Assembly (NCBI GenBank): GCA_903850425.1
Contig: CAINLR010000044.1
Span: forward strand, 1-64,000
Direction of reading: 5' to 3'
DNA from: an uncultured Verrucomicrobia subdivision 3 bacterium
Lineage (GTDB): Bacteria > Verrucomicrobiota > Verrucomicrobiia > Limisphaerales > UBA11358
DNA length: 64,000 bases
This document shows, in pieces, positions 59,207 to 61,468 of this stretch. Under the pieces are notes generated by a model. That model was not told where the DNA came from and ran no database searches. It worked only from the letters and a program-made list of their open reading frames with translations. How positions within the stretch are numbered: position 1 is the first letter of the stretch; each line of letters starts with the position of its first letter. The position numbers and the translations under genes are program-made.

Positions 59207-59692
59207 ATGCCTTCATTCGACATTGTTTCGCAACTCAACTCGATGGAAATCGAAAACGCCGTCAACCAGGCCAAAAAGGAACTGGCCAACCGGTTCGATT
59301 TCAAGAACAGCAAATGGGAAATCCTACTGGAGAAAACCGAGATCAAGCTCACCGCCGACAACGAATTCAAAGTCAGCACGCTCAACGAAATTGTCATTGG
59401 CAAGCTCGCCAAGCGCGGCCTCAGCATGAAAAGCATCGAGCAATGCGACCCGGACATTTCGCCGCTCGGCCATGCGCGGCAGAGCATCAAGCTCAAGCAC
59501 GGCATCGCGAGCGCCGACGCCAAGCTGATCGCCAGCTTCATCCGCGACAGCAAGCTCAAGGTCACCACGCAGATCCAGGGCGACGAAGTGCGCGTGCAGG
59601 GCAAGAGCCGCGACGATCTGCAAGCGGTCATCGCCGCCGTGCGCGGGCACGAATTTCCCGTGGCGGTGCAGTTTGTGAATTTCCGCGACTGA
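59207..59692 (+). CDS. yajQ: YajQ-family nucleotide-binding protein
   Basis: The 161-residue product is full length for the family: MPSFDIVSQLNSMEIENAVN, ANRFDFKNSKWEILLEKTEI, KLKHGIASADAKLIASFIRD and the C-terminal AVRGHEFPVAVQFVNFRD. YajQ proteins bind RNA, nucleotides and, in some species, cyclic di-GMP. The last 60 bases are found again at 60285-60344, after the DUF6883/DUF4926 pair, with only synonymous differences. Confidence 0.95.
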   Translation: MPSFDIVSQLNSMEIENAVNQAKKELANRFDFKNSKWEILLEKTEIKLTADNEFKVSTLNEIVIGKLAKRGLSMKSIEQCDPDISPLGHARQSIKLKHGIASADAKLIASFIRDSKLKVTTQIQGDEVRVQGKSRDDLQAVIAAVRGHEFPVAVQFVNFRD

Positions 59693-59698
59693 CGCAAA

Positions 59699-60037
59699 AT
59701 GAAATTGCCGGACGCCCACGTCGCTGTTGTCAGCCGCGAAAAAGTTGCGGATTATCTCCTCAACACGGCGCATCCCGACAACGGCGGCAAGGCGGAATTT
59801 TTCGAGCGACATGGATTCCACCGCGACGAATGGGAAGTGCTGGCTGCTGCGTTGAAACATCTGGCTGTCAACGGGGAGGTGATTTTCATCGGCGAAACGT
59901 TGCATGGGAAAAAGCATGTTGTCGTCGGGCCGCTGCCGTCGCCCGGCGGCAAGTCGCCGTTGGTGCAAAGCATCTGGATAGTGGACAAAGGTCTGGTTGT
60001 GGCTAGATTGGTGACGGCATATCCGCGCAAAGCATGA
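59699..60037 (+). CDS. DUF6883 protein
   Basis: A 112-residue protein with the DUF6883 layout: KLPDAHVAVVSREKVADYLL, the AHPDNGGKAEFFERHGFHRD segment with a conserved GKA-FF-x-GF motif, and the C-terminal SIWIVDKGLVVARLVTAYP. The domain also occurs at the ends of polymorphic toxins, and as stand-alone genes it is often followed by a DUF4926 gene, as here. A toxin role is an inference from that. It starts 7 bases after yajQ and overlaps the next gene by four bases (ATGA). Confidence 0.75.
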   Translation: MKLPDAHVAVVSREKVADYLLNTAHPDNGGKAEFFERHGFHRDEWEVLAAALKHLAVNGEVIFIGETLHGKKHVVVGPLPSPGGKSPLVQSIWIVDKGLVVARLVTAYPRKA

Positions 60038-60279
60038 AAGGCAACATGAAGATCAAAGAACATGACCGCATCGTTTTGAAAACCGCCATCGCCGCCGTAG
60101 GTTTGGAAGCCGGCGATGTGGGAACTGTGGTCCATGTGTATCGTGATGGGCTGGCTTACGAGGTGGAATTCACCACCCTCAATGGCGACACCGCCGCCGT
60201 GATCACCGTGGAAGCCGCCCAAGTGCGGCCCGTCCACAAACGCGAAATCACCCACGCCCGCGAACTGCAACCGGCCTGA
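60034..60279 (+). CDS. DUF4926 protein
   Basis: An 81-residue protein with a KOW/SH3-like small beta fold: HDRIVLKTAIAAVGLEAGDV, then GTVVHVYRDGLAYEVEFTTL and TVEAAQVRPV. This is the standard DUF4926 layout. The ATG at 60034 overlaps the upstream stop; a second Met five codons in (60046) is also possible. The pair with DUF6883 is common in bacterial genomes and is a candidate toxin-antitoxin or toxin-immunity pair, without direct proof. A duplicated yajQ end follows 5 bases later. Confidence 0.75.
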   Translation: MKGNMKIKEHDRIVLKTAIAAVGLEAGDVGTVVHVYRDGLAYEVEFTTLNGDTAAVITVEAAQVRPVHKREITHARELQPA

Positions 60280-60284
60280 AGTTT

Positions 60285-60344
60285 GCCGCCGTGCGCGGGC
60301 ATGAATTTCCCGTGGCGGTGCAGTTTGTGAATTTCCGGGATTGA
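60285..60344 (+). repeat. Second copy of the last 60 bases of yajQ
   Basis: The stretch matches 59633-59692 in 57 of 60 positions by eye. The three differences (CAC/CAT, CGC/CGG, GAC/GAT) are all synonymous, so it still reads AAVRGHEFPVAVQFVNFRD and a stop. It has no start and is a fragment. Together the copies flank the DUF6883/DUF4926 pair, a 652-base interval. Confidence 0.95.
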
Positions 60345-60356
60345 AGCTGCCTTTAC

Positions 60357-60959
60357 ATGGACTTGTTCCGCTCCAGCAAAGTCCGGCTCGTCCTGATTAT
60401 TTCAGGAAGTCTGCTGCTGGGCTGGATCGGCTTCAGTTGGAGATACGCCATGAAGTATTGCCACCGCCACTGCATTCATCAAACGGCGGCTGCGTTCCGG
60501 CTGTATGCGAGCGATCATAAAGGGAATCTCCCTTTCAGCACGAATGGTTTTGGCGATGCTTTGATGCTATTGGTCAACAGTGAGTATGTGACAGGAGTGG
60601 CTTTGACGACCATCCCTTTTGTTTGCGGCCCTGATGACGACGGGCATGTTTTTGCCGCCGCACTGACCAACCATTCCATCGTGCCGGAAGCCGCCTGCTC
60701 GCGAGTTTACGTTCAAGGCTTGAATGAGACAAACAATCCCGAGATTTGCGTTTTGTTTGACCGCAACTCCTGCAATGGCGGCGATCATGCCCGCTCCCCG
60801 TGGGCGCACCGGCTAAGAGAGGTCTGTCTGTTGGATAGTTCGGTGCGAGACATTCGCGACGAAGCCTGGCCGGAATTCAGCCGGAAACAAGTAGAGTTAC
60901 TGGTGGCCGCTGGTTTTTCGCGAACGAATGCGCTGCATTACTATCCAGCCGCAAATTAG
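60357..60959 (+). CDS. Membrane-anchored DUF1559-like hypothetical protein, 200 aa
   Basis: The N-terminal 27 residues contain one membrane helix (VRLVLIISGSLLLGWIGFSW) and no prepilin motif. The rest has FRLYASDHKGNLPFSTNGFG, as in the extracellular part of DUF1559 proteins, and a C-terminal REVCLLDSSVRDIRDEAWPE that takes the place of the usual LDGHV motif. So it looks like a pseudopilin relative with a plain membrane anchor. The function is unknown. It starts 13 bases after the duplicated yajQ end and is followed closely by the GNAT gene. Confidence 0.65.
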   Translation: MDLFRSSKVRLVLIISGSLLLGWIGFSWRYAMKYCHRHCIHQTAAAFRLYASDHKGNLPFSTNGFGDALMLLVNSEYVTGVALTTIPFVCGPDDDGHVFAAALTNHSIVPEAACSRVYVQGLNETNNPEICVLFDRNSCNGGDHARSPWAHRLREVCLLDSSVRDIRDEAWPEFSRKQVELLVAAGFSRTNALHYYPAAN

Positions 60960-60970
60960 CTGAATCTTTC

Positions 60971-61468
60971 ATGCGCCTCAAACTCCAGCCCGCCACAACG
61001 GATCACGCTGAGTCCATCGCAGCGTTGCGCGTGGCGATCGCCGAAAATCTGACCGCGCGTCATGGCCCGGGCCCGTGGTCCGCCGCCGGCACGATCAAGG
61101 GCGTGTTGTTCGACCTGCGCAATTCTTCGGTTTATGTCGCCACGCGCCGGAACCGGGTGATCGCCACGCTGAATCTCTGCACCAAGAAGCCGTGGGCTAT
61201 TGACCGGAAATATTTTTCCATCTGCAAACGCCCGCTGTATCTGGTCTCGATGGCGGTGCATCCCGACTGGCAGCGCCAGGGCATCGGCCGCTTATGCGCG
61301 GCGGAGGCGGTCAAGCTCGCCAAACAATGGCCGGGTGATGCGATATTTCTGGATGCCTACGATGCCGCCGCAGGCGCGGGCGAATTTTACCGGAAGTGCG
61401 GCTTCCGCGAAGTCGGGCGCGTGACGTATCGCAACGCCCCGCTGATTTATTTTGAGCTGCTGGTGTGA
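60971..61468 (+). CDS. GNAT-family N-acetyltransferase
   Basis: A 165-residue GNAT protein. The acetyl-CoA loop is seen in LVSMAVHPDWQRQGIGRLCA (Gln/Arg-x-x-Gly-x-Gly), and the C-terminal FLDAYDAAAGAGEFYRKCGF and GFREVGRVTYRN fit the last strands. The N-terminal segment is MRLKLQPATTDHAESIAALR. The substrate is unknown. It follows the membrane protein at 60357 by 11 bases and may be co-transcribed with it. Confidence 0.85.
   Translation: MRLKLQPATTDHAESIAALRVAIAENLTARHGPGPWSAAGTIKGVLFDLRNSSVYVATRRNRVIATLNLCTKKPWAIDRKYFSICKRPLYLVSMAVHPDWQRQGIGRLCAAEAVKLAKQWPGDAIFLDAYDAAAGAGEFYRKCGFREVGRVTYRNAPLIYFELLV

Follow-up and report, generated by a model that had tools for sequence, protein, structure and literature searches.

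A DUF6883/DUF4926 gene pair bracketed by copies of the yajQ 3' end in a verrucomicrobial genome, a candidate mobile cassette of housekeeping-gene ends

The yajQ locus and its cassette

The window analysed here is a 64,000-nucleotide (nt) stretch of DNA from an uncultured Verrucomicrobia subdivision 3 bacterium (assembly GCA_903850425.1, contig CAINLR010000044.1), in which the housekeeping gene yajQ is followed by a cassette of two small genes, DUF6883 and DUF4926, and then by a second copy of its own 3' end. The host gene is full length (59207..59692, on the forward strand, like every feature named at this locus) and its product matches both DUF520 (E 1e-56) and the NCBIfam YajQ equivalog, above the latter's cut-off. 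The functional end of the gene (59633..59695) forms a direct repeat of 63 nt, at 94% identity, with the downstream copy (60285..60347); within this repeat the last 60 bases of yajQ (59633-59692) reappear at 60285-60344 with 3 changes, all at third codon positions and all synonymous. The preliminary description of this DNA, made from the letters alone, had reported the recurrence of the yajQ end after the cassette, and we confirm it: the copy is beyond chance, agreeing at 54 of 57 bases as against 29 of 57 at the next-best place in the 9-kb locus. In long target duplication the inserted module lies between direct repeats of its target, which vary in length and measure roughly 100 bp, and the 63 nt found here are of that kind.

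Between the two copies, the DUF6883 open reading frame (ORF; 112 amino acids (aa), 59699..60037) begins 6 nt beyond the yajQ stop codon, and the DUF4926 ORF (81 aa as listed, 60034..60279; its homologues begin at an internal methionine, window position 60046) stops 5 nt before the second copy. The stop of the one and the start of the other overlap as ATGA (60034-60037), so that the cassette has the two small co-directional ORFs of a type II toxin-antitoxin pair. No integrase or transposase lies inside it, the interval 59693-60284 holding just these two ORFs by the ORF list and by Pfam, and the PADLOC models gave no match to the cassette proteins at E 1. An ORF of 200 aa (60357..60959), an earlier neighbour of yajQ, begins 12 nt after the second yajQ end.

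DUF6883 is predicted to be a ribonuclease (RNase) toxin of the BECR fold. In addition to the Pfam match (E 7e-30), its AlphaFold2 model (predicted local distance difference test, pLDDT, 93) has as its best fold match the CdiA-CT of Klebsiella pneumoniae 342 (PDB 6CP9; Foldseek E 9e-5), with Z 11.6 and a root-mean-square deviation of 2.1 over 100 residues at 25% identity; further matches, with Z of 5-8, a range that the tool calls common, are to the CdiA-CT of E. coli 3006, a Salmonella toxin, BrnT and RelE. The accessible text of PMC9086364 gives the active site of the Klebsiella protein as K157, Y160, H170, R252 and T255. Matched by the offset of the aligned ranges, no residue alignment being printed, K15, R103 and T106 of DUF6883 correspond to K157, R252 and T255, and the K, Y, H, R and T of that site are found in the family at varying frequency (among 100 proteins, K15 and Y19 are invariant, while H25 occurs in 78, R103 in 77 and T106 in 86). 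The model therefore has the toxin fold and active site that a type II toxin would be expected to have. Different from the Klebsiella toxin, DUF6883 is here a stand-alone ORF without delivery domains, and its partner is modelled as an SH3/KOW-like barrel (DUF4926; Pfam E 2e-19; AlphaFold2 pLDDT 90). We regard DUF4926 as the likely antitoxin or immunity partner; polymorphic toxin cassettes are likewise described, in the portion of PMC3482391 available, as having the toxin first and the partner second. Our literature search, outside which most subscription papers lie, found nothing on DUF6883 and a single paper on DUF4926.

It is unlikely that the pair is instead an ordinary small operon, carried by genome rearrangements and with no toxin function. 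The Foldseek matches of DUF4926 to NusG/SH3 are weak only, and toxin activity is a prediction that we infer from the fold, both of which leave room for such an operon; against it stand the CdiA-CT fold, the matching catalytic residues, and a genome (G652; G numbers denote the compared genomes, G000 being that of the window, and L numbers denote loci) in which an RHS protein has DUF6883 as its C-terminal domain and DUF4926 follows immediately. At another locus (L118, in G295), a 562-codon frame that contains an LPD3 domain has DUF6883 at its C-terminal end, and DUF4926 again lies directly behind.

The yajQ locus in relatives

Our comparison of yajQ took in 53 full-length loci, that of G000 included (two of them with less than 250 nt of downstream sequence); three more loci with a partial yajQ were left out of the comparison of second copies. 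A second copy of the yajQ end is present in two of the 53 only, G000 and G025 (55/57), and the other 51 have no such copy, their best second match being 33/57. The arrangement is accordingly not general among relatives, and where the end is duplicated a cassette comes with it. Empty sites, which the preliminary description had proposed to look for, were also found: the usual downstream neighbour of yajQ, a gene of the metallo-beta-lactamase (MBL) fold (15 loci), lies 13, 74 and 99 nt away in three loci from two genomes, and 640-2322 nt away in the other twelve. The cargo between the two genes in those twelve varies and includes ParD (G046) and ParE (G031), both confirmed by Pfam, as well as methyltransferase-like and acyltransferase-like ORFs recognised by eye. 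Together with window positions 60357-61468, the yajQ-MBL interval of the relatives makes up a variable spot, for the most part without a yajQ end copy.

Which of the two copies is the older resident is suggested by G035 and G038, where a homologue of the window's 200-aa ORF (63.5% aa identity over 170 aa) begins 1 nt after the yajQ stop codon. Because the same neighbour there follows yajQ directly, the second copy in the window sits at a native junction, and it is best read, on this comparison, as the displaced native end of yajQ. The earlier proposal was that the cassette had arrived with a yajQ end of its own and pushed the old end downstream: this is supported, its second half by the junction just described, with the qualification that yajQ alone cannot separate such an arrival from duplication of the end in place; gcvP in G035 and trpE in G538 are the cases that speak for copies of separate ancestry. 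The genome nearest to G000 by yajQ, G027, has different ORFs behind the gene and no second copy.

A different cassette at the same point, the other thing that was sought among relatives, is carried by G025, in the order yajQ, DUF6883, DUF4926, yajQ end, and its copied stretch starts at most 2 nt from the base at which that of G000 starts. The two genomes share 46% identity in DUF6883, 68% in DUF4926 and 88% in yajQ. In G025 the second copy has its nearest match in that genome's own yajQ end (2/57 differences), while that in G000 is closest to the end of G027 (2/57) and then to its own (3/57). Independent insertion and exchange of cassettes are both possible origins of this pair of loci. In both genomes the 3' end of the cassette locally resembles yajQ just before the copied stretch (p of about 0.01 each), a similarity that may explain the shared start; as a general rule for the junctions it was rejected, being absent at 11 other targets, with one untestable. 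The suggestion that the yajQ 3' end may be an integration site for such cassettes is supported by G000 and G025, but yajQ is just one of several genes used. A contig of G015 (L034, G015:C70) opens with a yajQ end that is followed by a glycosyltransferase-like ORF; G015 may be a third yajQ case, and it stays a possible one because another of its contigs breaks within yajQ.

Recurrence of the cassette behind other genes

DUF6883 was found in 15 of 49 genomes of the genus, in 66 of 320 of the order, and in 12 of 387 sampled across the phylum. The host of the window probably belongs to the Limisphaerales (Verrucomicrobiota), since the DUF6883 of G010, a genome of the same genus, recurs at 100% identity in a named Limisphaerales record. 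After deduplication there were 125 matches, 113 of them with DUF4926 downstream, and 123 could be tested for direct repeats shared by the 500 nt before and the 900 nt after the cassette. A repeat with a score of at least 25 flanks 39 of the 123, a score that none of 368 cross-locus pairs reached (top 24.5; 99% at 14.5). With a generic, wider window, repeats occur at 40 of 120 DUF6883 loci, 5 of 25 DUF5615 loci, 5 of 19 HigB loci and none of 28 glyoxalase loci (5 DUF5615 and 2 glyoxalase loci were dropped, as a cut-short locus made the window overlap itself).

Clear duplications of a gene end account for 14 of the 39 repeat-flanked matches, with repeats of 47-184 nt; the other 25 or so have no gene-end assignment, and two rows among the matches are fragments of one locus (L172). 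The genes concerned are yajQ (G000, G025), gcvP (G022, G035), ileS (G531, G582), trpE (G538), gltX (G078), glmM (G035), a GFO/IDH/MocA oxidoreductase (G586), DNA methylases (G006, G261, the latter at about the cut-off, and a Planctomycetota genome) and an unassigned ORF (G549). The downstream copy at L113 begins 270 nt past the cassette, and the target at L141 is an unassigned ORF of 105 codons. In several of the gene-end cases the DUF6883 start overlaps the stop of the host gene as ATGA or GTGA, and, more broadly, an upstream co-directional ORF of at least 100 codons abuts 52 of 104 cassettes, as compared with 77 of 505 random places. Because relatives carry this kind of gene pair likewise behind other housekeeping genes, the cassette looks, on the sequence evidence, like a mobile unit for which copied gene ends serve as landing strips. 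We rejected gltX as a second hot spot, since its tail is copied in G078 alone among 44 genomes with a gltX match. At one of the HigB loci (L362, G092), the toxin gene stands between copies of the end of an ORF that by eye resembles a tyrosine recombinase and whose frame starts inside an apparent tRNA gene.

The flanks of the cassettes point the same way. We compared 92 pairs of cassettes whose DUF6883 proteins share 72% identity or more. In 77 of them neither flank is similar; similarity is confined to the upstream side in 8 pairs and to the downstream side in 2, extends to both sides in 3, and was untestable in 2. Near-identical cassettes thus lie in unrelated surroundings, an example being those behind glmM in G035 and behind ileS in G531, which are 85% identical. 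Most of the named loci are metagenome-assembled, exact repeats misassemble easily, and the sole complete record that we saw, a Nitrosococcus plasmid, has no repeat, so that an assembly artefact or a mixture of strains might be suspected. Such an origin is very improbable: copies that diverge by as much as about 20% cannot have been joined by chance in assembly, and many assemblies unrelated to one another show the pattern, at different genes, while the glyoxalase loci have it in 0 of 28.

Some genes have a tandem array behind them. In G531, ileS is followed by a DUF6883/DUF4926 pair and an ileS end; the stop of this end overlaps the start of another ORF, after which comes a second ileS end. 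In G538, trpE is followed by two cassettes, each with a trpE end, the DUF6883 of the second being partial; and in G040, the stretch behind gcvP holds, in order, an ORF that is weakly PIN-like, DUF4926, a gcvP end, one more ORF and a second gcvP end. The order within these arrays fits repeated insertion at the gene, with the newest cassette first. Several degraded trpE fragments, some of them internal, lie downstream of the gene at four other loci (L311, L312, L313 and L316, in G530, G533, G535 and G073, respectively), as if many successive insertions and deletions had taken place.

Site-specific integration might produce similar arrays, if a recombinase supplied in trans placed small circles at gene 3' ends with the copied end as the attachment core, as for islands at the ends of tRNA and other genes; in its favour are the arrays in which the newest cassette stands beside the gene, and the same start of the copied yajQ end for two unrelated cassettes. 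We nonetheless consider this quite improbable. The cassette has no recombinase, and so lacks the integrase of its own that an integrase-driven element at a gene 3' end carries; the target genes are unrelated and without a shared core; the copied ends of the same gene differ in length between genomes (48 v 125 nt for gcvP, 51 v 98 nt for ileS); and the common yajQ start may stem from the local similarity of the cassette 3' end to yajQ described above.

Ancestry of the copied ends and a proposed route of spread

The downstream gcvP copy of G035 matches the gene of G001 at 117 of 125 bases, as against 108 of 125 for its own upstream copy, which in turn matches G034 and G037 at 118 of 125; at the 17 sites where the copies differ, G001, G047 and G020 favour the downstream copy. 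For trpE in G538, 18 relatives match both copies about equally (4-11 v 4-11 of 21 differences), and the next trpE copy along appears decayed in most comparisons. These patterns support, at the level of sequence, different ancestry of the gcvP copies and of the trpE copies. Over the 14 duplicated ends, differences fall at codon positions 1, 2 and 3 in the numbers 37, 27 and 87, that is, 58% at the third position (71% for functional yajQ ends). The excess over one third is large (p 8e-10), but it is no test of duplication in place, because the upstream copy stays under selection either way. The mix of differences would fit copies of different ancestry with later decay of the downstream one.

We propose, with a probability of about 0.6, that the cassette enters by insertion with a long duplication of the target gene's end and then spreads by homologous recombination with that end as an arm. 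A promoterless DUF6883/DUF4926 cassette would have inserted at the yajQ stop codon and would therefore, in our proposal, be expressed as the tail of the yajQ transcript; the insertion would have duplicated about 60 bases of the gene end, the upstream copy completing yajQ and the downstream copy being the old native end beside its old neighbour. To spread, two crossovers would suffice, one within the gene itself and the other within the downstream copy, with no shared flank required beyond the gene, and the recipient would retain its own downstream flank, its own gene end remaining as the downstream copy. Such a two-crossover exchange would explain why shared flanks are upstream-only rather than downstream-only (8 v 2 pairs), as well as the ancestry of the copies; it would leave the first entry into a new gene unexplained, for which the nearest known process is insertion with long target duplication. 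More tentatively, these may be integrase-free mobile cassettes that carry their own homology arm, the copied 3' end, so that RecA-type recombination could deliver them behind the same gene in any relative, and repeats of the process could build integron-like arrays, newest first, on the essential genes ileS, gltX, trpE, gcvP, glmM and yajQ.

Several observations weigh against this proposal. No repeat of the required score flanks 84 of the 123 DUF6883 matches, and the repeats at DUF5615 and HigB loci argue in part against uniqueness, just one of them (L362) resembling a gene end. At the 17 sites that differ between the gcvP copies of G035, 26 of the 29 relatives agree more often with the upstream one. 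Of the 151 differences in the 14 ends, 85 are synonymous and 66 non-synonymous, and because of the latter the decay of downstream copies has to be part of the picture. The yajQ copies of G000, differing at 3 of 57 bases, are too alike to prove separate ancestry, and the comparison with the yajQ of G027 (45 of 483 bases different) does not discriminate ancestry or a mosaic yajQ. G035 and G038 are far from G000 (yajQ 78% aa identity) and, being near-identical to one another at this locus, count as one witness to the native junction. Finally, a search for a vehicle matched one plasmid, pNHAL01 of Nitrosococcus halophilus (42% identity, no flanking repeat), no phage record and no viral contig; a phage or plasmid vehicle was therefore rejected.

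The same data may be read more simply, as plain insertion with duplication of the end in place and no recombination afterwards, the upstream copy being kept by selection while the downstream copy decays. This is possible but clearly less probable than insertion followed by recombination. In its favour, repeat length varies from 47 to 184 nt in the gene-end cases, as it does in long target duplication; in G538 the second of the trpE copies seems decayed, with most of the 18 relatives matching the copy that precedes it; and 42-44% of differences lie off the third codon position. Against it, different lineages appear to have supplied the ends of gcvP in G035 and of the first trpE copy in G538, and the 3 changes in G000 set the upstream, selected copy apart from relatives, the downstream copy having the commoner bases.

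Both parts of the preferred reading have counterparts in known systems. Restriction-modification units insert with a long target duplication that is, in the text available from PMC3874152, 'in the order of 100 bp', a process (Nobusato et al. 2000) discussed in the accessible parts of PMC1643837, PMC3031569, PMC3874152 and PMC4978471. By these accounts they too are small selfish modules without a transposase of their own, flanked by target direct repeats of about 100 bp and of variable length, and seen by genome comparison; here likewise, relatives have a single uninterrupted target (51 of 53 yajQ loci, and the G035/G038 junction). They differ in that the cargo here is DUF6883/DUF4926, three DNA methylase genes appearing as targets instead, and in that the duplicated piece here is a gene end in the sense direction, which restores the gene and places the cassette behind its stop codon; copies of different ancestry, tandem arrays and many different host genes set the present case further apart. 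Orphan modules of contact-dependent inhibition (CDI) and Rhs systems, as described in the available portions of PMC4927057 and PMC3967940, resemble it in that the old 3' end is pushed downstream by a new one that brings a toxin-immunity pair, repetition leads to tandem arrays, repeated gene parts recombine homologously, and a BECR toxin precedes its partner. There, however, the host is a toxin gene (cdiA or rhs) that gains a new toxin end, whereas here it is the housekeeping gene yajQ, which still encodes the same protein, and the toxin has an ORF of its own. Integron gene-cassette arrays likewise hold small promoterless cassettes with toxin-antitoxin cargo, the newest beside the anchor, but no integrase was seen in our cassette (no attC search was made), its anchor is a housekeeping gene, whose end forms the repeat.

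Restriction-modification units thus offer a precedent for the type of insertion, and CDI/Rhs systems one for displaced 3' ends, while the use of housekeeping-gene ends with tandem arrays looks new; by title and abstract we found no toxin-antitoxin insertion of this type, most subscription papers lying outside the search. For these small toxin pairs, which have no transposase, the moves between chromosomes have left readable traces: a duplicated gene end marks each arrival, names the landing gene and allows successive arrivals to be ordered. Were the recombination reading true, housekeeping genes would be shared landing strips and the element would need no enzyme of its own. On plasmid pNHAL01 (L414), DUF6883 and DUF4926 lie between genes for an ATP-binding protein and a metal-dependent hydrolase, with a RelE/ParE toxin and a DNA methyltransferase nearby.
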